Position numbers and translations under genes: made by a program. The notes under the pieces are model-generated. The model had not been told where the DNA came from. It searched no databases and worked only from the letters and a program-made list of their open reading frames with translations. From assembly GCF_025685545.1 (NCBI RefSeq), contig NZ_JAGSYC010000025.1, positions 248,001 through 312,000 of the forward strand: a stretch of DNA of 64,000 nucleotides. Direction: 5' to 3'. Positions 2 through 33,078 of this stretch are shown here, piece after piece; the stretch's first letter is position 1, and every line of letters starts with the position of its first letter. The stretch comes from Granulicella paludicola (GTDB lineage Bacteria > Acidobacteriota > Terriglobia > Terriglobales > Acidobacteriaceae).

Positions 2-1735
2 GCTGGCGGCGCGCTTTCGACGCCGGTGGCCATCTCTTCGAACTCGACCACGGACACGGTGACGGCGACCCCGGCAACGAACACGGTGGGTTCGACGGAG
101 ACGATCACGTTCAGCATTCCGGTGGTAACCGGAGCGAGTGTGCCGACGGGTTCGGTGGCGTTTACCAGCGGCAGCACGAGCCTCGGCAACGCGACCTGGA
201 ATAACCCCACGCCTGTGGCTTGCGGAACGGGCACCTGCTACACGATTTCGATTACGACGACGGCGTTGCCGTTGACGGTGGCTCCGAGCACGAGCACACC
301 GGTGCTGGCGACGTATTCCTCCGGTACGGGTTCGGGCTATTCTTCGGCGACCGCGACGACGACCGTGGTGATCAACCAGGTTGCAGGCGGCGGCGATACG
401 GTGGTTGCTGCCAGCGGGACGATCTCCGTGGGCAGCCCGGATGCTTTGACCTTCTATGTGCCTGTAGTTTCTGGCGCTCCTGTACCTTCGGGAACCGTGG
501 CGTTCACCAGCGGATCGACGAACCTAGGTTCGGCGACCTGGCCAGCGAGCCCGGTGACGGGTAGCTGCGCTGCTGGCACCTGCTACATTCTGGCCGACTC
601 GCCCACGCCGACGAACATTCCTCTGACGGTAGCTCCGGCGACGAGCTCGCCGGTGACGGCGACGTACACGGCGGGCTCGGGTTCGGGCTACGCTTCGACG
701 ACGGCGACGACCTCGGTGGTTGTGACTCCGGCCTCTGGCACGGGCGACACGCTGACGGCTGCGCCGACGACGATTACCTATGGCGCTTCCGACACGCTGA
801 CGTTCAGCATCCCCGTGGTCTCAGGAGCTCCGGCGCCGACCGGTACGGTGACGTACAGCGTAGGTACCACCACCCTGGGCACGGCTACATGGCCTGCGAA
901 TCCGACGGCAACCGGCGGCGTGTATAGCCTGCCGTTTGCGACGACGAACCTGCCAGTTGGCAGTCCGACGACGGTTTCGGCGGCGTTTACTCCGTCCTCT
1001 GGCTCGGGTTACGGCACAGGAACGGCGACGACGACGGTGACAGTGAACCCTGTCCCTCTGTCGAATGATGGCATCTCGGCTACGCCGAGCGCGACGACCT
1101 CGGGCAACACGGTGACGATCGTGTTCTCGGTGCCGACGGTGAACGGTACGGCTCCGGCGACGACGTCCTCGGTGACGTTCACGTATGTTCCGAGCGGTTC
1201 GACAACGCCGGTCACGATTACATCCGCTGTCAAGGGTGTGACGGCGAACGGCACAACGACGTATACGACGACGAGCTCGACACTGCCTGTGGGCACTGAT
1301 ACGGTGACGGGAACGTTCACCGGCGACACGAACTATGCTGGCGGCGCGCTCTCGACGCCGGTGGCTATCTCTTCGAATTCCACGACGGACACGGTGACGG
1401 CGACCCCGGCGACGAACACGGTGGGATCGACGGAGACGATCACGTTCAGCATTCCGGTGGTAACCGGAGCGAGCGTGCCGACGGGTTCGGTGGCGTTTAC
1501 CAGCGGCAGCACGAGCCTTGGCAACGCGACCTGGGCTCTTCCGACGCCGGTAGCTTGCGGAACGGGCACCTGCTACACGATTTCGATTACGACGACGGCG
1601 TTGCCGTTGACGGTGGCTCCGAGCACGAGCACACCGGTGCTGGCGACGTATTCCTCCGGTACGGGTTCGGGCTATTCTTCGGCGACCGCGACGACGACCG
1701 TGGTGATCAACCAGGTTGCAGGCACGAGCGATGCG
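2..1735 (+). repeat. Near-identical repeat copies 1,335 bp apart inside the Ig-like gene
   Basis: The stretch from about base 8 to 400 recurs at about 1343-1735 with only scattered substitutions, an offset of exactly 1,335 bp (445 codons). The reading frame is kept, so recombination between the copies would delete or add 445 residues without a frameshift. Confidence 0.8.
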
Positions 1736-4700
1736 GTGACAGCGGCGAACAGCACGACAACGGTCGGCAGTGCCGATCCGCTGACGTTCAGCATTCCGGT
1801 GGTGAGCGGCGCTCCAGCCCCGACGGGTTCGGTCTCCTTCACCAGTGGGTCAACGAACCTTGGTTCGGCGACGTGGCCCGCGACGCCCACGACGGGAACC
1901 TGCCCCAACGGCACGGGTACCTGCTATCTGCTGGCGGATAACCCATCCCCGACGAACATTCCTCTGACGGTGGCACCGGCGACGAGCACCCCGGTGACGG
2001 CGACCTATACTGCTGGCTCAGGTTCGGGCTACGCTTCGACGACGGCGACCACCACGGTCGATGTCACTCCTGTCGGCGGCACGGGCGGTACACTTTCCGT
2101 CGCAAATAACCCCACCACGTACGGCACGCCGGACACGCTGACGTTCAGCATTCCGGTTACCTCGGGCGTTCCTGCTCCGGCGGGTACGGTGGTCTTCACG
2201 GCGGGATCGGGCACGACGACAGCACTTGGCTCTGCCACGTGGCCAGCCACCCCGACGGCTGTGAACGGTTTCTACACCCTCTCTATCTCTCCGTCGAACA
2301 TTCCTGTGGGTAGCCCCACGGCGCTGACAGCGACGTTCACCCCGACTGCCGGCTCCGGTTATGGAGCTTCGGCCCCGACGGCCAATGTGACGGTGAATCC
2401 GGTACCGGTCTCGAGCGACAGTATCGCAGCGAGTCCGAACCCACAGACCTTCGGCTCCGCGGTGACGCTGGTCTTCTCCGTTCCGACGGCGAACAGCACA
2501 CCTCCTTCGGCAGCCACTACGGTGACCTTCACCAACGGCTCGACGGTTCTGGGCACGGCGAATATCACGGGTGTCACAGCAAATGGCGTAACGACGTATA
2601 CGACTACCACCTCTGGGCTGCCTGTCGGTTCTGACACGGTAACGGGAACTCTCACTGGCGACACGAACTACGCCAGTGGCGCTCTCAGCACAGTGGAGGT
2701 CATCAACGCAGCGACCGGTGCGGCGACGCTGACCGCGAACCCGAACCCGACAACCTTCGGTACTCCGGTGACGCTGACGGAGACGATTGCTCCGATCGGC
2801 GGCGCCTGCCCATCCGGCCCTGCGACCTTCCTGAGCAACGGAACGTCGATTGGAGCGGGTGCGATCAGCCTGGTCGGTGGCTCCTGCGTGGCGACGCTCA
2901 CCACCTCGACGCTACCTGTCGGCACGGACAACATCACGGCGACGGTACCTGCGAGCAACGGCTTCGCGGCTATCACCTCCGGTCCTGTGGCGGTAACGAT
3001 CAATAAGGCTCCTGCCAGCAACAACACGCTGACGACGAGCCCGAACCCGAGCACGTTTGGTCAGACGGTCACGATCAGCCTGGCTGTTCCGACCGAGGCT
3101 GGTACGCCTGCCACGGGCACGGTGACCTTCTATAACAACGGCGCGTCGATCGGCACAGGAACGGTGACAAACGGTGTGGCGACAGTGACGACGGCGACCC
3201 TGCCTGTTGGCACTGACCCAATCACGGCGACGTATGCGGGCGATGCGAACTACGCGACCGGTACGACGGGTCCTGTGAACCAGGTTGTGAACGCTTCCAA
3301 TGGAACGTCGAATCTGACGGCGACGCCGAACCCGACGACCTTCGGTACTCCAGTGACGCTGACGGAGACGATTACTCCGATCAACGGCACCTGCCCAACG
3401 GGACCGGCGACCTTCCTGAACAACGGAACGTCGCTCGGCACGGGAGCAATTACGCTACAAGGCACCTCCTGTGTGGCGACGCTGACCACCTCGACGCTGC
3501 CTGTCGGGACGGACAACATCACGGCGACGGTACCTGCGAGCAACGGCTTCGCGGCTATCACCTCCGGTCCTGTGGCGGTAACGATCAATAAGGCTCCTGC
3601 CAGCAACAACACGCTGACGACGAGCCCGAACCCGAGCACGTTTGGTCAGACGGTCACGATCAGCCTGGCTGTTCCGACCGAGGCGGGTACGCCTGCCACG
3701 GGCACGGTGACCTTCTTCAACAATGGCACTTCAATCGGCACGGGAACGGTGACGAACGGTGTGGCGACGCTGACGACGGCGACGCTGCCTGTCGGCACCG
3801 ATCCCATCACCGCGACGTATGCGGGCGATGCGAACTACGCGACCGGTACGACTGGTCCTGTGAACCAAGTGGTGAACGCTTCGAATGGCGCTGCGACGCT
3901 GACGGCTAACCCGAACCCCACCACATTCGGCACGCCGGTGACGCTGACTGAGACGATCGCTCCGATCAATGGCACCTGCCCGACCGGACCGGCGACCTTC
4001 CTGGACAACGGAACGTCGATCGGCACGGGCGCGATCAGCCTGGTTGGCACCTCCTGCGTGGCGACTCTGACCACCTCGACGCTGCCGGTTGGCACAGACA
4101 ACATCACGGCAACGGTTCCGGCCAGCGGCGGCTTTGCGGCTATCGCTTCGGGTCCGATCAGCGTGGTTGTGGGCAAGGCTGCTGGCGTCGGTGACACGCT
4201 GACGACGAACCCCAACCCCAGCACCTTCGGCAACCCGGTCGTTGTGACCGAGACCCTGCCGACGGTGGGTGGTGTGGCTCCGACGGGAACGGTGACGTTC
4301 TACAACAACGGCACGTCCATCGGCACGGGAACGATTGTGGCCGGTGTGGCGACGATTACCACCTCGACGTTGCCTGCAGGTACGGATCCGATCACGGCGA
4401 CGTATGCTGGCGATGCGAACTATGCGATCGTCACGAGCGGACCTGTGCAGCAGGTCGTCAATACTGCCGGCACGGCTGCCACATTGGCGGCTGGACCGAA
4501 CCCAGCTACCTTCGGAACGCCGGTTACGCTCACCGAAGCAATCACTCCGATCAACGGCGTCTGCCCGGCGGGTCCTGCCACCTTCCTGAACAATGGAACG
4601 GTGATCGGTACCGGGGCGCTGACGCTGACGAACGGTTCGTGCGTGGCTTCGATCACCAGCTCGACGCTGCCTGTTGGCACGGACTCCATCACGGCGACCG

Positions 4701-6997
4701 TCCCGGCAAGCAACGGCTTTGCGGACATTACTTCGGGTCCTGTGGCCCTGGTCATCAATAAGGCCAACGGCGCGGACACGCTGACCTCCAGCCCGAACCC
4801 ATCGGTCTTTGGCACCACCGTTACCATCACGGACACCATTCCGACGGTGGGTGGTGTGGCTCCGACGGGCACGGTGAACTTCTACAGCTTCGGTACGCTC
4901 ATCGGACCTGGAACGATCACGAACGGTGTGGCGACGATCACCACAGCGACCTTGCCTGTTGGCACGGATTCGCTGACCGGCGTCTACCTGGGAGATTCGA
5001 ACTATGCGCAGGTTACGGCGGGTCCCGTCAACCAGGTGGTCACGGCCGTCTCGACGGTAGCGACGCTGGCGGCTGGTCCTAACCCGGCCAACTTCGGCAC
5101 GACGGTTACGATCACTGAGACGATTCCGGTGACCAACGGCACACCTGCCACCGGTACGGTGACGTTCTTCTCGAACGGCACACAGATCGGTACGGGCACG
5201 CTGGTCAACGGTGTAGCGACGATTACTTCGTCGACGCTGCCTGTTGGCACGGATGCCATCACGGCAACCTATCCAGGCGACACGAATTACAGCAAGGTGT
5301 CGTCGGGTCCGGTGAACGAGATCATCAATAAGGCCAACGGCGCTGATGTGCTGACGGTCAATCCTGATCCGGCACAGTTCGGCTCTGTCGTCACGATGGT
5401 CGATACGATTCCGACCGTCGGCGGCGTGGCTCCGACCGGCACGGTGTCCTTCTATAACAATGGTGTCCTGATCGGCACGGGTACTGTAGACAGCACGGGC
5501 AAGGCGACTTTGACCTCGACGACGCTGCCTATCGGTACCGATCCGATCACCGCGGTCTACAACGGCGACGGCAACTACGCGCCGGTGTCGACGGGGCCGG
5601 TGAACGAGACGATCACACAGTTCAGCTCGCTGCCTGTGCTTTCGGCGACGCCGAATCCCGCACAGTTCGGTACAACGGTGACGCTGACGGAGTCGATCCC
5701 AGGTGTCAACGGTGTGACGCCGACGGGTTCGGTGACCTTCACCTATAACGGCACGACGCTGGGAACGGCGACGGTCGTGAATGGTGTGGCGACGCTGACT
5801 ACGACGACGCTGCCGATCGGTACCGATCCGGTGTCCGCAACGTATACCGGTGACACGACCTACGCTCCGGCCACCTCCGGTCCGCTGAACGTCGTCATCA
5901 CCAAGTCAGCGGCTGCGGATACCTTGACCGCTACCCCGAACCCGAGCATCTTCGGAGGCGCGGTGACGCTGACCTTCACGGTACCTCCGGTCAACGGTGT
6001 GGCTCCGACAGGTACGGTGTCGTTCTACAACGGAACGACGCTGCTTGGAACGGCGACCGTCAATGCAGCGGGAGTGGCGACGATTACCACGAGCGCGCTG
6101 CCTTACGGAACGGACACAGTGGTCGCGCAGTATCCGGGTGACAATAACTACGCTCCTGAAGCTCCGACGGTCACGGTCAACGTGACGCCGGTGACGCCGA
6201 CCAGTGTGGTCACGGTGCCGACGACTCCGCCGGTCTGTGGCTCCTCGGTGACGCTGACGGACACCATCACTGCGGTGAACGGTGTGGCTCTCGGCGGCAC
6301 GGTGCAGTTCTATGTGAACGGTGTGGCGTTCGGTAGCCCGATACCGGTTCCGGCATCGGGAGTGGTGACACTCACGAGCTCGACGCTGCCATGCACTACG
6401 GATGTCATCACTGCGGTGTACACGCCGCCGGCCGGATCGCCGTACGGTCCGTCCACCGGCGGACCGACGACGCTGAATGTTCTGAACCCAGACTTCAGCA
6501 TCGCGGCAACACCGCCGACACAGACGGTCAACCCAGGTGATTCGGCTACGTACACGATCTCGCTTTCGGGTGTGAACGTTCCGTTCACCTCGCCGGTTAC
6601 GTTGACGGCGACGGGTCTGCCTCCGGGTGCCACGGTCACCTTCGCGAACCCGACGTACATTCCCAATGCGGGGCCGACGACGACGACGATGACGATTGTG
6701 ACGTCACCGACGCAGGCGATGCTGCAGCATGGGAAGAGCGGCGGTCTCAATGGCGTCTACTACGGCCTGCTTCTGCTCCCGCTGCTTGGGATCGGTTCGG
6801 TTCGCCGCAAGATCCGTGCTCTGCCGAAGGGAATCACCTATTGCCTCGCGGCGATGGCTCTCCTAGGCGGTCTTGGAGCGATGACAGGTTGCGGAGGTGG
6901 TTACTTCGGACCGGCACCCAACACGTACACGATCACCGTTACCGGCACAAGTGGTACGCTTGTCCATTCCACAACAGTCACTTTGACGGTACGATAG
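2..6997 (+). CDS. Giant Ig-like repeat surface protein, 5'-truncated by the window edge
   Basis: The reading frame is open from the first complete codon (base 2), so the true start lies upstream; the GTG at base 26 lies inside a repeat and is not a convincing start. The visible 2,300+ residues are about two dozen Ig-like modules of 80-100 residues (Big_3/Ig_3-like) rich in Thr, Gly, Ser and Val, with recurring GTVTFYNNG, TLPVGTD and YAGDANY motifs. Such proteins are exported adhesin-like or matrix proteins. The end is special: a DFSIAATP..GLPPGATV domain runs into a hydrophobic segment (bases about 6758-6802), an Arg/Lys loop (RRKIRALPK), a second hydrophobic stretch ending AMTGC (Cys codon 6890-6892), and then a final beta-strand segment (YTITVTGT..TVTLTVR). 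The small beta-barrel gene starts 15 bp downstream. Family assignment is secure; function (adhesion, biofilm) is inferred. Confidence 0.85.
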   Translation, partial: AGGALSTPVAISSNSTTDTVTATPATNTVGSTETITFSIPVVTGASVPTGSVAFTSGSTSLGNATWNNPTPVACGTGTCYTISITTTALPLTVAPSTSTPVLATYSSGTGSGYSSATATTTVVINQVAGGGDTVVAASGTISVGSPDALTFYVPVVSGAPVPSGTVAFTSGSTNLGSATWPASPVTGSCAAGTCYILADSPTPTNIPLTVAPATSSPVTATYTAGSGSGYASTTATTSVVVTPASGTGDTLTAAPTTITYGASDTLTFSIPVVSGAPAPTGTVTYSVGTTTLGTATWPANPTATGGVYSLPFATTNLPVGSPTTVSAAFTPSSGSGYGTGTATTTVTVNPVPLSNDGISATPSATTSGNTVTIVFSVPTVNGTAPATTSSVTFTYVPSGSTTPVTITSAVKGVTANGTTTYTTTSSTLPVGTDTVTGTFTGDTNYAGGALSTPVAISSNSTTDTVTATPATNTVGSTETITFSIPVVTGASVPTGSVAFTSGSTSLGNATWALPTPVACGTGTCYTISITTTALPLTVAPSTSTPVLATYSSGTGSGYSSATATTTVVINQVAGTSDAVTAANSTTTVGSADPLTFSIPVVSGAPAPTGSVSFTSGSTNLGSATWPATPTTGTCPNGTGTCYLLADNPSPTNIPLTVAPATSTPVTATYTAGSGSGYASTTATTTVDVTPVGGTGGTLSVANNPTTYGTPDTLTFSIPVTSGVPAPAGTVVFTAGSGTTTALGSATWPATPTAVNGFYTLSISPSNIPVGSPTALTATFTPTAGSGYGASAPTANVTVNPVPVSSDSIAASPNPQTFGSAVTLVFSVPTANSTPPSAATTVTFTNGSTVLGTANITGVTANGVTTYTTTTSGLPVGSDTVTGTLTGDTNYASGALSTVEVINAATGAATLTANPNPTTFGTPVTLTETIAPIGGACPSGPATFLSNGTSIGAGAISLVGGSCVATLTTSTLPVGTDNITATVPASNGFAAITSGPVAVTINKAPASNNTLTTSPNPSTFGQTVTISLAVPTEAGTPATGTVTFYNNGASIGTGTVTNGVATVTTATLPVGTDPITATYAGDANYATGTTGPVNQVVNASNGTSNLTATPNPTTFGTPVTLTETITPINGTCPTGPATFLNNGTSLGTGAITLQGTSCVATLTTSTLPVGTDNITATVPASNGFAAITSGPVAVTINKAPASNNTLTTSPNPSTFGQTVTISLAVPTEAGTPATGTVTFFNNGTSIGTGTVTNGVATLTTATLPVGTDPITATYAGDANYATGTTGPVNQVVNASNGAATLTANPNPTTFGTPVTLTETIAPINGTCPTGPATFLDNGTSIGTGAISLVGTSCVATLTTSTLPVGTDNITATVPASGGFAAIASGPISVVVGKAAGVGDTLTTNPNPSTFGNPVVVTETLPTVGGVAPTGTVTFYNNGTSIGTGTIVAGVATITTSTLPAGTDPITATYAGDANYAIVTSGPVQQVVNTAGTAATLAAGPNPATFGTPVTLTEAITPINGVCPAGPATFLNNGTVIGTGALTLTNGSCVASITSSTLPVGTDSITATVPASNGFADITSGPVALVINKANGADTLTSSPNPSVFGTTVTITDTIPTVGGVAPTGTVNFYSFGTLIGPGTITNGVATITTATLPVGTDSLTGVYLGDSNYAQVTAGPVNQVVTAVSTVATLAAGPNPANFGTTVTITETIPVTNGTPATGTVTFFSNGTQIGTGTLVNGVATITSSTLPVGTDAITATYPGDTNYSKVSSGPVNEIINKANGADVLTVNPDPAQFGSVVTMVDTIPTVGGVAPTGTVSFYNNGVLIGTGTVDSTGKATLTSTTLPIGTDPITAVYNGDGNYAPVSTGPVNETITQFSSLPVLSATPNPAQFGTTVTLTESIPGVNGVTPTGSVTFTYNGTTLGTATVVNGVATLTTTTLPIGTDPVSATYTGDTTYAPATSGPLNVVITKSAAADTLTATPNPSIFGGAVTLTFTVPPVNGVAPTGTVSFYNGTTLLGTATVNAAGVATITTSALPYGTDTVVAQYPGDNNYAPEAPTVTVNVTPVTPTSVVTVPTTPPVCGSSVTLTDTITAVNGVALGGTVQFYVNGVAFGSPIPVPASGVVTLTSSTLPCTTDVITAVYTPPAGSPYGPSTGGPTTLNVLNPDFSIAATPPTQTVNPGDSATYTISLSGVNVPFTSPVTLTATGLPPGATVTFANPTYIPNAGPTTTTMTIVTSPTQAMLQHGKSGGLNGVYYGLLLLPLLGIGSVRRKIRALPKGITYCLAAMALLGGLGAMTGCGGGYFGPAPNTYTITVTGTSGTLVHSTTVTLTVR
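2937..3690 (+). repeat. 585-bp direct repeat within the Ig-like gene
   Basis: Bases about 2937-3102 and 3522-3687 are identical or nearly so over roughly 165 bp (encoding NGFAAITSGPVAV through SLAVPTEAG), at an offset of exactly 585 bp (195 codons). The flanking sequence is also very similar. This indicates recent in-frame duplication of a two-domain unit. Confidence 0.8.
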
Positions 6998-7012
6998 GTG
7001 AAAGGATCACAC

Positions 7013-7612
7013 ATGAAGCGCTTTGGAAAGACCCTGCTTATCGTTCTGGGTCTGGGTGTAGGGGTCGTCGGGTACGGTTCCAGTACGGCACACGCCCAGG
7101 CGAGTGTTGCCAGCTCACAGATGCTGCGCGTGGATGTAGCTGGCGGCTTTACGGTCATCCGTGCGAACGAGGGCCCCGCGGTCTGCGGTTGCTTTTACAT
7201 GAACGGCGGTAGTGGAGAGCTGGCAGTGACCAACAGTCACAACATCTCCTTCGTGACCAACGTCGGCTACACTTCGCAGACCAACATCGGCAATATCGAC
7301 CGAAACCTGGCGTTGCTGACGGTGCTGGAAGGCGGTCGCTACACGTTTGAGCGTGGCCGTTTGTCGACCTTCGGGCAGGGCATGGTGGGTCTGGGCAAGA
7401 CCACCAGTAATTACAAGATCGATCAGAGCTCGGCACGCCTGGCACTGGCTGTCGGCGGTGGCCTCGACTTGCGGCTGTCGAACCGGTTCTCGATTCGTCC
7501 AGCGGAGGTAGAGTATCTCTTCACCACGATTCCCAACGGTCAGAACAACTTCCAGAACCAGCTGCGGATGACAGCAGGCGTGGTCTTCCACGTCAACGGG
7601 TCACGGCGGTAG
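7013..7612 (+). CDS. Small exported beta-barrel outer-membrane protein (cassette partner 1)
   Basis: This 199-residue protein starts with a Sec signal peptide (MKRFGKTLLIVLGLGVGVVG...TAHAQA). It continues as alternating-polarity beta strands and ends in an aromatic/hydrophobic strand (AGVVFHV), as in 8-stranded OmpA/OmpX-like barrels. ATG 7013 is preferred over GTG 6998 because AAAGGA lies 6 bases upstream of it and the signal peptide begins there. It follows the Ig-repeat gene by 15 bp, so the two are probably co-transcribed. It is recognisably related to the barrel at 32446-33078: GGSGELAV matches GGSAELGI, GGGLDLRLSN matches NGGLDCRSSQ, and both have a Gln-Asn-x-L-R..AGVV end. A terminator-like hairpin follows. 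A role in anchoring or exporting the preceding surface protein is inferred; a generic structural OMP is the alternative. Confidence 0.75.
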   Translation: MKRFGKTLLIVLGLGVGVVGYGSSTAHAQASVASSQMLRVDVAGGFTVIRANEGPAVCGCFYMNGGSGELAVTNSHNISFVTNVGYTSQTNIGNIDRNLALLTVLEGGRYTFERGRLSTFGQGMVGLGKTTSNYKIDQSSARLALAVGGGLDLRLSNRFSIRPAEVEYLFTTIPNGQNNFQNQLRMTAGVVFHVNGSRR

Positions 7613-29628: not shown

Positions 29629-29702
29629 CGACTTAGCCTTCGGTGGCGATGATGTGTTCATTGCCACCGGTATCACTTCCTTACGATCGAGACCAAACGC
29701 GG

Positions 29703-32444
29703 ATGTCGTCAACTATTCTCTTCCGGCCAGCTTCACCCCAGGACGACGCGTTTCTGCGCCTGCTCTTTGTTTCGACGAATGCGACGCTCGCGTTGATGCC
29801 GGAGGAGCTTCGGTCTCAGCTCGCTGAGATGCAATACTCCAGCCGTGTGCTGAGTTATGCCGCCAGCTATCCTTCGGCGCAGAATCTCATCCTGAGCCTG
29901 GCCGACGCTACACCCATCGGTCGGCTGCTCTTCGGCAAGACGGAGAGCGGCGTCCACCTGGTCGATATCGCCGTTCTGCCCGCGTTTCAGAGTCAGGGCA
30001 TCGGTTCCTTTGCAATCGCACACCTGCAAACACTTGCGGGAGGGAACTCGATCACCCTTCAGGTTGCGCCGGGCAATCCGGCTGAGGCGCTCTATCGTCG
30101 CCTCGGTTTTCAAACCGTAGCCGCGAACGAAACCTCCATCCAGATGTTCTGGGCTGCGGCTTCAAGACCGCTGGCTGAATGCTCCACACCGAACGCCGCG
30201 TCGAACCCTATGATCTCTGCACATCTCTCTGAACCTTCTCATGGCAGGGGCCGTGCGCTGCGGGTCGCGGTCGCTGCGGCACTGCTGCTCTCTGCCGGTC
30301 TGGCCAAAGCGCAGGGTATTTTGACGGTCACGCCTGGGCGTGTGCTTTCTACTTCTGCCGGTACTGGCACGGTGGGGTACACCGGCGATGGTGGAGCTGC
30401 GACGAGCGCTACGCTGGCCGCGCCCAGCGCGGTGGCGTATGACGGCAACGGCAATCTGTACCTGGCCGATTCGCTCAATCATGTCGTGCGTGAGATTGCG
30501 ACAAACGGTACGATCACCACGGTCGCCGGAACGGGCGTGGCCGGGTTCGGCGGTGATGGCGGCGCGGCGACGGCGGCGCTTCTTGATACACCTACGGGCG
30601 TGGCCGTGGATGGCAGCGGCAACATCTATATTGCGGACTCGCACAACCACCGCATCCGTCTCGTAAGTGGCGGCAACATCTCGACGGTGGTGGGGACGGG
30701 TACGCCAGGATTCAGCGGCGACGGAGCCGCGGCTTCAGCTGCGCAACTTGCCTTGCCGAGCGGAGTGGCAGTGGATACCGCTGGCAATCTGTACATCGCC
30801 GACCGCAACAATCAGCGCATCCGCAAGGTAAGCGGTGGCACCATCAATACCCTCGCGGGCGATGGCGAAGAGTTGTTCGCTGGCGACGGCGGAGCTGCGA
30901 CCGCAGCGGCACTCGATCTGCCATCGGGTGTTGCGGTCGATACAGCAGGCAAGGTTTACATCGCCGACCGTAACAATCAGCGCATCCGCGTGGTGAACAC
31001 CAGCGGCATCATCTCGACCCTCGCCGGCAGTGGCAGTGCCAGTTTTTCGGGCGGCTTTTCAGGTGACGGTGCCAGCCCTACGGCTGCGACGCTGGCCAAG
31101 CCTACAGGCGTCAGCGTCGATGCTGCGGGCAATGTTTATATCGCCGATACAGACAATCAGCGTATCCGCCGGGTCGGCGGGGGTGCAATTGCCACCATCG
31201 TGGGCAGTGGCGCGCAAGGCTTTGGCGGCGACAGCTCGGTTGCGAGCCAGGTCAATCTGAACGAGCCGAAGGCAGTGGCGCCGGATGCAGTGGGCAACCT
31301 CTCCATCGGCGATCGCTTGAATCAGCGGCTTCGCGGCGCGGCTCTGCCGACCATCACTTTCGCGAATCAGGGAGTCGGTGTGGCGTCTTCGCCTCAGCCG
31401 GTCACTTTGGCCAACACAGGTACGGCTTCGATAACCGTCACCTCAACTGCGTTCACGGGTAGCTACTCGGCAGCAGCGGGCAGCCCCTGCGGGGCTCTGC
31501 CGATCACGCTGACGGCGGGCACGAGCTGCGTTGAGAATCTGCTTTATACGCCGCTGGTGACAGGAACAAGCTCGGGTTCGGTCATCTTCAGTGGGGCGGG
31601 TGTTGTGCCACAAACGCTCCTGCTCACAGGCACAGCGATCAAGACGGCGACCACCGTCACGCTGACGGCGAGCGTAGCTACCCCCTTCAATGGGCAGGCC
31701 GACCTCTTTACCGCGGTAGTGAACGTGGCGGGTACGGTGCCTGCGTCCGGTACTGTGACCTTCCTCGATGGCACCACGGCTATAGGAAGTGGTTCGCTGG
31801 TGAACGGTGTGGCAACGCTGACGACCTCGGCTCTGGCTGACGGATCGCACAACATCACCGCGGTGTACGCGGGCGACCTCAATTACACAGGCAATAGCTC
31901 GCCGGTGCTGCCGATCTCCGTGCTGGACTTCAGCCTCAACCTGTCGACGGCGAACGGCTACCTGACCGTCACGCCGGGGCAGGCTGGCGTCTTCACTTTC
32001 ACTGTCGCCCCTGTCGGCCTGCCCTTCAACGTGCCGATTGTGCTGACAGCCACGGGACTGCCGCCCGGAGCAACAGTCAGCTTCAATCCACAGACCATCA
32101 CGCTCGGCTCGACTGCTACCACCTTTACGATGACGATCCTGACTCTGGTCGCGTTGGTAGAACAGCACCAGTTCTTCGGCAGCGTGACGATTGCCCTGGG
32201 CCTGCTGTTGCTGCCGTTCTCGCAGAGCCTACGCCGTCGCGTTCGCGGCACACGGTTACTTACCCTCTGCGGACTTCTGCTGCTTACCCTGGGAGCAATC
32301 GGTGGTCTGACCGGCTGCGGATCCAACAACGGATTCCTTGGGCAGTACCAGAAGTCCTACACCGTAACCGTGACCGGAACAGCCACTAGCTCTACCGGCG
32401 CAACGCTGCAGCGCTCCACGACCGTAACTCTGGTGGTGGAGTAA
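29703..32444 (+). CDS. GNAT acetyltransferase domain in one frame with an NHL/Ig surface protein
   Basis: A single uninterrupted frame of 913 residues joins two proteins that are normally separate. Residues 1-150 are a GNAT N-acetyltransferase (ILFRPASPQDDAFL; acetyl-CoA loop AVLPAFQSQGIGSFA; NPAEALYRRLGF). A linker then leads to a signal-peptide-like segment (GRGRALRVAVAAALLLSAGLAKAQ, residues about 181-204). Next come six NHL repeats (GVAVDTAGNLYIADRNNQRIR), an ASH-like domain, a Big_3 Ig domain, and a tail like that of the giant Ig protein: hydrophobic segment, SLRRRVRGTR, second hydrophobic stretch ending LTGC (Cys codon 32316-32318), and YTVTVTGT..TVTLVVE. ATG 30210 is an internal start that would give a normal exported NHL protein, but it has no ribosome-binding site. 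ATG 29703 is chosen as the GNAT start; GTG 29643 is an alternative. Fusion, lost stop codon or two overlapping products are all possible. Confidence 0.75.
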   Translation: MSSTILFRPASPQDDAFLRLLFVSTNATLALMPEELRSQLAEMQYSSRVLSYAASYPSAQNLILSLADATPIGRLLFGKTESGVHLVDIAVLPAFQSQGIGSFAIAHLQTLAGGNSITLQVAPGNPAEALYRRLGFQTVAANETSIQMFWAAASRPLAECSTPNAASNPMISAHLSEPSHGRGRALRVAVAAALLLSAGLAKAQGILTVTPGRVLSTSAGTGTVGYTGDGGAATSATLAAPSAVAYDGNGNLYLADSLNHVVREIATNGTITTVAGTGVAGFGGDGGAATAALLDTPTGVAVDGSGNIYIADSHNHRIRLVSGGNISTVVGTGTPGFSGDGAAASAAQLALPSGVAVDTAGNLYIADRNNQRIRKVSGGTINTLAGDGEELFAGDGGAATAAALDLPSGVAVDTAGKVYIADRNNQRIRVVNTSGIISTLAGSGSASFSGGFSGDGASPTAATLAKPTGVSVDAAGNVYIADTDNQRIRRVGGGAIATIVGSGAQGFGGDSSVASQVNLNEPKAVAPDAVGNLSIGDRLNQRLRGAALPTITFANQGVGVASSPQPVTLANTGTASITVTSTAFTGSYSAAAGSPCGALPITLTAGTSCVENLLYTPLVTGTSSGSVIFSGAGVVPQTLLLTGTAIKTATTVTLTASVATPFNGQADLFTAVVNVAGTVPASGTVTFLDGTTAIGSGSLVNGVATLTTSALADGSHNITAVYAGDLNYTGNSSPVLPISVLDFSLNLSTANGYLTVTPGQAGVFTFTVAPVGLPFNVPIVLTATGLPPGATVSFNPQTITLGSTATTFTMTILTLVALVEQHQFFGSVTIALGLLLLPFSQSLRRRVRGTRLLTLCGLLLLTLGAIGGLTGCGSNNGFLGQYQKSYTVTVTGTATSSTGATLQRSTTVTLVVE

Positions 32445-32445
32445 C

Positions 32446-33078
32446 GTGAGCTCAACGATCAGTTTGAAATCCCTGAGGGTCTGGAGAGTGACACCAGTGT
32501 CTTCCATGTTGCGTACGGCGATCTGCACGGCGGTCTTGGCATTCAGCGCAGCGGCTTGCAATGCGCAGGCTGCTGCGCCTGCCGATCCTGTCGATGTTGC
32601 CTTCACCTTCAACGCTCAGCGCACACTGCGGGTCAGCACGGGGCAGAACTTCTGGCTGGAAGGCGGCTCGGCAGAGCTCGGTATCGGCCTGGGGCATGGG
32701 TTTGGAATTGCCTTCGACTACACAGGCACGCGGACGAGTTCCATCGGTACGAGCGGTGTGCCGCTGGTGCTGGGCACGGCGACCGTCGGCCCGCGTTACC
32801 GCATGTATGCAGCGAGGCGCTGGTCCCCGTACGTGCAGGCGCTCATCGGCGAAGCGACCGGGATGGATAGCACATTTGCCACGCCGACCGGAGCGGTATC
32901 AAACGCGAGCAGCTTCGCGTTTCAGGCGAATGGCGGGCTGGACTGTCGCAGCTCGCAGCACATTGCGTTCCGAGTGCTGGATGTGGGCTATCTGCATGCG
33001 GGGCTCGGCAATGGAGGCAGTAATACACAGAACCTGCTGCGGCTGGGAGCCGGCGTGGTGATCCGCTTCAAGCCGTAG
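32446..33078 (+). CDS. Small exported beta-barrel outer-membrane protein (cassette partner 2)
   Basis: This 210-residue barrel-like protein starts 1 bp after the stop of the NHL/Ig gene, so coupling is likely. Starts at GTG 32446 (GGTGGAG just upstream), GTG 32497 and ATG 32506 all leave the signal peptide MLRTAICTAVLAFSAAACNAQA intact; 32446 is used here. The rest alternates strands and turns and ends GAGVVIRFKP. It aligns by eye with the barrel at 7013-7612 in the first strand block (FWLEGGSAELGIGL), the NGGLDCRSSQHIAFRVLDVGYL block and the QNLLRLGAGVV end. It probably sits in the outer membrane. The repeated pairing with an Ig/NHL surface protein suggests a partner role. A lipobox-like AAAC in the signal peptide is weak. 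Confidence 0.75.
   Translation: MSSTISLKSLRVWRVTPVSSMLRTAICTAVLAFSAAACNAQAAAPADPVDVAFTFNAQRTLRVSTGQNFWLEGGSAELGIGLGHGFGIAFDYTGTRTSSIGTSGVPLVLGTATVGPRYRMYAARRWSPYVQALIGEATGMDSTFATPTGAVSNASSFAFQANGGLDCRSSQHIAFRVLDVGYLHAGLGNGGSNTQNLLRLGAGVVIRFKP

Follow-up and report, generated by a model that had tools for sequence, protein, structure and literature searches.

Type II signal peptides, whose lipobox is defined in PMC8689077, lie at the N-terminus of lipoproteins handled by Lgt, LspA and Lnt. A different logic is seen in MYXO-CTERM, described in PMC11980579 as a tag at the C-terminus of many surface proteins that combines an invariant Cys, one membrane helix and an Arg-rich stretch, while the DUF11/CLIPPER domain (PDB 9ifr) is an immunoglobulin (Ig)-like sandwich that, according to PMC12617251, contains a Lys-Asn isopeptide bond. 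Here, we analyze the C-terminal tail shared by two large proteins, protein 1 and protein 2, encoded in a 64,000-nucleotide stretch of Granulicella paludicola DNA (contig NZ_JAGSYC010000025.1, positions 248,001 to 312,000), which we refer to as the window. The best explanation, and one we consider probable, is that this tail is a C-terminal anchoring module with an internal type II (lipoprotein) signal peptide.

Like an N-terminal type II signal, the tail has n-, h- and c-regions, a G, A or S at position -1, a Cys and a Gly/Ser linker, but its signal sits near the C-terminus, after a re-entry helix and inside an Ig-like domain. MYXO-CTERM, which is by analogy the nearest studied parallel in logic, has the order Cys-helix-Arg with an inverted topology and no defined lipobox, whereas the tail runs helix-Arg-helix-Cys-strands. 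The DUF11/CLIPPER sandwich resembles the tail domain (Z 9.3 over 104 residues) and, unlike it, is free of a hairpin. Against protein 1, the Pfam DUF11 model scored 14.7 bits with the hairpin excised (E 0.04) and 10.6 bits with the domain intact (cut-off 24.6), and no DUF11 match was found in protein 2 in the same hairpin-excised Pfam run; two of the six proteins in that run, those from L083 and L147, did not contain the intended repeats and were set aside. Rejoining of two halves by an isopeptide bond, as in CLIPPER, was rejected for want of a conserved Lys, which reaches at most 5.2% in the well-filled columns of strands A-E and at most 6.3% after the Cys.

The tail family itself is already catalogued. 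NCBIfam release 20.0 (June 2026) contains NF058595, invert_tail, a "lipo-invert putative C-terminal anchoring domain", which dates the remark in the initial annotation that no name was known for the pattern. Protein 1 matches this model at 60.0 bits (cut-off 37) over all 113 positions; protein 2 scores 27.5 bits alone and 31.8 bits in the genome search and, despite falling below the cut-off, has the same anatomy as protein 1 and can be aligned with other tails. The genome that holds the window gave 26 matches at E<=0.01, 15 of them above the cut-off, and by reading we retained 23 as real tails (rows L036, L039 and L040 were excluded as not tails). In control genomes, matches at E<=0.01 occurred in 11 of 14, none above the cut-off, and 0/14 remained at 1e-6. 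No paper on this tail was found in the PMC literature, where subscription papers and preprints are sparse. The family is thus not new and the chemistry would be that of the known lipoprotein pathway, so that the new part is the placement of the signal inside the C-terminal Ig domain; to the NF058595 entry we add evidence on the Cys, evidence on the split Ig domain, and the mechanism that follows from both.

Both proteins end in the same succession of Ig strands, helix, Arg-rich loop, helix, lipobox Cys and strands, an order proposed in the initial annotation that now has exact coordinates (Table 1). The Cys, estimated there to lie about 35 residues from the C-terminus, is followed by 34 residues in protein 1 and 41 in protein 2. 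The complete gene of protein 1, in a genome of 4.96 Mb whose contig 19 contains the window, encodes 3686 amino acids and, by reading of the sequence, begins with a Sec-type signal whose last residues are AKAQ. Given this ordinary N-terminal signal, the ectodomain would leave the cell interior before the tail is synthesized.

The Cys is the sole invariant column among the 23 tails of the window's own genome (290-column alignment, mean column identity 29%). To avoid circularity, we built a model from these 23 tails with the Cys and the three preceding residues masked; the model retains the hairpin, and hairpin-less tails could escape detection. Searched against seven family genomes, it returned 108 rows, 83 of which were analyzed, while 25 were left out (24 confined to the Ig part of the model, at positions up to 62, and one to 116-145). 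Three of the 83 (L147, L149 and L150) are not tails, and the remaining 80, taken with the 23 own tails, carry a Cys with G, A or S at -1 in 103/103. A wider sample contributed 43 further tails (18 of family f66, 15 of f64, nine of f1 and one of f68), made up of 40 high-scoring rows among the matches listed together with L172, L178 and L191. The final set has 146 tails, 23 from the own genome and 123 found in other genomes by the masked model; hairpin and Cys are present in all 146, and the Cys in each of the 123 found with this position masked.

The residues just before the Cys resemble a lipobox in register. Position -1 is G in 91 tails, A in 39 and S in 16, that is, G/A/S in 146/146, vs 25 to 75 of 146 at nine shifted registers, and [LVI][ASTVI][GAS] is matched in register by 64 tails, vs 4 to 17 at the nine shifted ones. 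The strict lipobox [LV][ASTVI][GAS]C is present in 53/146, and the count of 64 is reached when I is permitted at -3. In 33 tails with two or more Cys around helix 2, the lipobox-like Cys was picked by rule, and in five of the tails (L034, L086, L217, L223 and L228) it was reassigned by a preference for G/A/S at -1, which favors a lipobox; the 113 single-Cys tails are free of this bias, and their -1 residue is G in 71, A in 30 and S in 12. At position +2, 114 tails have G or S and one has Asp. The distance from the last basic residue to the Cys is 15-22 residues in 131/146, and 32-55 residues follow the Cys in 139/146 (total range 32-126). The longest such extension, 126 residues in L132 (the next longest is 71), would give a larger lipoprotein part.

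The positive-inside rule and the topology of lipoproteins are well established, and the orientation proposed here for the hairpin is based on them. A basic n-region and a hydrophobic h-region precede the Cys in every tail. The initial annotation had called for an alignment to test whether the Cys and the basic loop are conserved; such a comparison places the Cys after helix 2 in 146/146 tails and gives the loop a mean net charge of +4.4, against +1.3 for the 25-residue segment preceding helix 1 and +0.2 for the part beyond the Cys. This pattern agrees with the positive-inside rule if the loop is cytoplasmic, as predicted, and both ends are outside. Without helix 1, helix 2 of an exported protein would run from the outside in and leave the Cys in the cytoplasm; when helix 1 re-enters the inner membrane, helix 2 would gain the orientation of a signal peptide.

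We next turn to the fold around the hairpin, for which AlphaFold was run on 13 sequences. In the protein 1 model, strands are predicted at residues 10-78 and 152-175, with block means of the predicted local distance difference test (pLDDT) of 80-94 and 91-93, respectively; the corresponding strands of protein 2 reach 88-96 and 92-96, and its end blocks of mixed strand and coil 79 and 66. By VIA-align, residues 8-176 of the protein 1 model superimpose on residues 404-502 of 2ber (Z 10.8, root-mean-square deviation 2.4, 98 residues) and residues 5-178 of the protein 2 model on residues 403-502 (Z 10.8, root-mean-square deviation 2.5, 99 residues). The roughly 98 aligned residues equal the sum of the strands on either side of the hairpin, with the hairpin excluded. 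In 143 tails, profile matches to the two strand groups flanking the hairpin are separated by 45-155 residues (median 62), vs -7 to 21 residues in 26 of 39 matches to upstream repeats of the same proteins, where no hairpin intervenes; the remaining 13 gaps of 61-279 may join different repeats, and the repeat matches include the overlapping L039 and L040, so that a few are counted twice. Taken together, the models point to the strands beyond the Cys as the completion of an Ig-like domain started before the hairpin. The earlier impression of a hydrophobic block inserted into a single Ig-like fold is supported by two AlphaFold models, by alignment to contiguous Ig domains and by the uninterrupted repeats.

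The enzymes of the lipoprotein pathway are encoded in these bacteria. LspA was found in 60/60 family genomes, as a single copy in 58, for which reason a dedicated extra LspA was rejected, and genes for Lnt, Lgt and LolA are each present in 10/10 genomes. In the mechanism we propose, the large protein would be exported through its ordinary N-terminal signal, after which helix 1 would re-enter the inner membrane and place the Arg-rich loop in the cytoplasm. Helix 2 would then run N-in/C-out, like the signal peptide of a lipoprotein, and present the lipobox Cys on the periplasmic side of the membrane, where Lgt would add diacylglycerol to it and LspA would probably cut in front of it. The product would be a lipidated peptide with an N-terminal Cys, in which a flexible linker leads to two beta-strands, and these two strands would complete the last Ig-like domain, so that the fold ties the large protein to the lipid anchor.

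The steps of this scheme differ in how likely we hold them to be. Lipidation of the Cys is likely, judging from its lipobox, the way helix 2 is oriented and the occurrence of Lgt and LspA in these genomes, and cleavage by LspA before the Cys, also read from sequence, is probable to a lesser degree. Non-covalent retention through the Ig fold is as plausible as its opposite, and a final location in the outer membrane or at the surface is suggested tentatively; giant proteins beside barrel genes weakly favor the outer membrane. The fullest version, that LspA splits the chain in two, the lipidated two-strand peptide holds the large protein by strand complementation, a second protease removes the transient hairpin, and the assembly is carried to the outer membrane, sometimes with a co-encoded beta-barrel, is possible, though somewhat doubtful as a whole. 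If the proposal is true, the lipoprotein pathway can also use a signal placed close to the C-terminus, and the tail represents, in addition to lipoboxes at the N-terminus and C-terminal tags of the sortase type, a third way of attaching large proteins to the Gram-negative envelope. At least 23 proteins with the tail are encoded in the window's genome, and the tail is therefore relevant to surface assembly in these soil bacteria.

Several observations weigh against an internal signal peptide in a split domain. The large fragment left by LspA would keep helix 1 and the stump of helix 2 in the inner membrane, and since helix 1 stays after the cut, lipidation alone cannot account for transfer to the outer membrane: either the fragment remains, or another cut would be needed. 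The pattern [LVI][ASTVI][GAS]C is missed by 82/146 tails, 62 of which deviate at -3 and 38 at -2 (some at both), with A at -3 in 17, M in 11 and Q, P or N in a few, and the baseline of N-terminal lipoproteins from the same clade comprises seven candidates, too small a number for comparison. On the structural side, the hairpin helices are modeled at low confidence (block-mean pLDDT 40-66 in protein 1 and 53-75 in protein 2), VIA-align gives no more than the two end points of each alignment, and numerous Ig-like chains score within 1 Z of one another, near Z 10. An ATG within the n-region, found in 53/146 tails vs 31/146 in a control window, fits a separately translated end of the protein to some extent.

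That last idea, in which the final ~60 residues form a separate small lipoprotein made from an internal start before helix 2, also draws on the presence of some start codon in the n-region of 120/146 tails (96 in the control window). Yet a start combined with a Shine-Dalgarno-like motif occurs in just 10/146, a figure without a control, for which reason we did not accept internal initiation as a general explanation; it would also leave helix 1 purposeless, and we hold it to be very improbable. It is unlikely, though less so, that the Cys is lipidated by Lgt without a cut by LspA, which would leave a single chain held by both the lipid and a transmembrane hairpin: every feature for Lgt recognition is present and a small -1 residue alone is no proof of cutting, but the G, A or S found at -1 in all tails adjoins the scissile bond of LspA, an enzyme that none of the family genomes searched lacks.

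The tail could instead be a plain transmembrane hairpin, for which two hydrophobic helices and a positive-inside charge distribution would suffice as an anchor, with the Cys kept for another reason or by descent. Such a hairpin sits poorly with a Cys that alone is invariant in an own-genome alignment of 29% mean column identity, with a -1 residue fixed as G/A/S only in register with that Cys, and with the single Cys of 113/146 tails, which leaves no partner for a local disulfide there; we regard this reading as slightly more unlikely than the uncut chain. Processing by a sorting enzyme devoted to this C-terminus, of the kind that acts on MYXO-CTERM or GlyGly-CTERM proteins, would share the logic of one C-terminal tag on many surface proteins, and MYXO-CTERM likewise has an invariant Cys (PMC11980579). 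The tails examined here carry a lipobox-like motif, however, and such an enzyme is improbable.

The initial annotation took the pattern to be common in the phylum, which proves too wide. In a phylum sample searched with NF058595 at 1e-6, all 17 own-family genomes matched, while the 132 others yielded four genomes with one match each and no full tail. Two of these four matches (L057 and L060) fall on ordinary lipoprotein signals at the N-terminus, each with a Gly/Ser-rich linker behind it, and the other two (L058 and L059) are Ig-like strands without interruption, e.g. STLTVTTASTTPAGTYTLTLTGTSGALSHSTTVTLSV; in these four matches outside the family, NF058595 picks up one half alone, that of the lipoprotein or that of the Ig domain, never the combination. 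Two of the four exceed its cut-off, and NF058595 is therefore not fully tail-specific. In a class sample searched with the masked model, 96/151 genomes matched (37 of f1, 34 of f66, 19 of f64 and six others), a result that carries no claim of a tail in every f64 or f66 genome. Five of the six others match in the Ig part only, and the sixth, G253 (9% contamination), contains a genuine tail. Where a genome had many candidates, scoring covered a part of them (28 such genomes in the phylum sample and 26 in the class sample), and the match numbers of those genomes are lower bounds. The protein 1 tail has relatives in Edaphobacter, Granulicella, Acidobacteriaceae KBS 89 and acidobacterial metagenome-assembled genomes; one named relative species is placed in Acidobacteriaceae, Terriglobales, Terriglobia.

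Table 1. Features of the two tail-bearing proteins and the genes behind them, in window coordinates.
Feature	Position	Strand	Basis or remark
Protein 1, giant exported Ig-repeat protein, 3' part	2..6997	+	Pfam: 19 stretches of Big_3_5
Protein 1, last Ig-like domain (GLPPGATV domain), strands A-E	6491..6703	+	AlphaFold, structural alignment
Protein 1, helix 1 of membrane hairpin (re-entry helix)	6749..6799	+	
Protein 1, Arg/Lys-rich loop, predicted cytoplasmic, n-region of internal signal	6800..6832	+	
Protein 1, helix 2 = h-region, predicted internal type II signal peptide	6833..6889	+	
Protein 1, lipobox MTGC	6881..6892	+	Cys codon 6890-6892
Protein 1, strands F-G, C-terminal pair predicted to complete the Ig-like domain	6920..6994	+	AlphaFold, structural alignment, repeat comparison
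Outer-membrane beta-barrel gene, CGCF motif	6998..7612	+	PF13505 22.7 bits, below cut-off 28.7
Protein 2, NHL repeats + Big_3_5 + tail (Pfam)	29643..32444	+	Likely true start 30210
Protein 2, strands A-E of last Ig-like domain	31926..32144	+	AlphaFold, structural alignment
Protein 2, helix 1 of hairpin	32184..32231	+	
Protein 2, basic loop RRRVRGTR	32232..32255	+	
Protein 2, helix 2	32256..32315	+	
Protein 2, lipobox LTGC	32307..32318	+	Cys codon 32316-32318
Protein 2, two C-terminal strands	32355..32441	+	AlphaFold, structural alignment
Outer-membrane beta-barrel gene behind protein 2	32446..33078	+	PF13505 35.5 bits, cut-off 28.7 passed

A putative outer-membrane beta-barrel gene follows each of the two proteins. 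In 11/11 relatives of the protein 1 tail (L237-L247), which are close kin rather than independent cases and include four strains filed as E. lichenicola, the next gene encodes a beta-barrel with the motif NAPPGQCGCF, and most members of this beta-barrel family, to which the genes behind protein 1 and protein 2 are homologous, have the CGCF motif near the first strand. Across the whole tail set, a barrel gene lies directly downstream of 19/146 tails at E<1e-4, in a search of 117 downstream open reading frames (ORFs) in which five of the 146 tails had fewer than 600 bases downstream. The barrel accompanies a subset of tails, that of the giant protein 1 included, and not the tail in general. In a check for type II secretion, secretin-like matches were found in 10/10 genomes, all below the GspD cut-off.

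Upstream of protein 2, a GNAT acetyltransferase domain is encoded in frame at 29643-30129 with no intervening stop. The Met at 30210, which opens a signal ending in LAKAQ, is likely the true start of protein 2, and a fusion, a missed stop or real readthrough are candidate causes of the in-frame joining.

Some own-family genomes hold extra, divergent Lgt-like genes, two in the window's own genome and up to four in G083. In one genome (L250, in part L142), a tail gene at 793-3703 is followed 66 bp on by a paralog of Lgt, which is the enzyme expected to lipidate it, at 3769-4546. A dedicated Lgt was rejected, as the next best match to this adjacent paralog in 150 family genomes has only 40% identity, and no tail was seen in the surrounding ORF lists of seven other extra Lgt-like genes; the single adjacency could be chance. 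By reading of the ORFs, an RluD-like pseudouridine synthase lies near four of the eight Lgt-like stretches (L249, L252, L254 and L255 in the set L249-L256).

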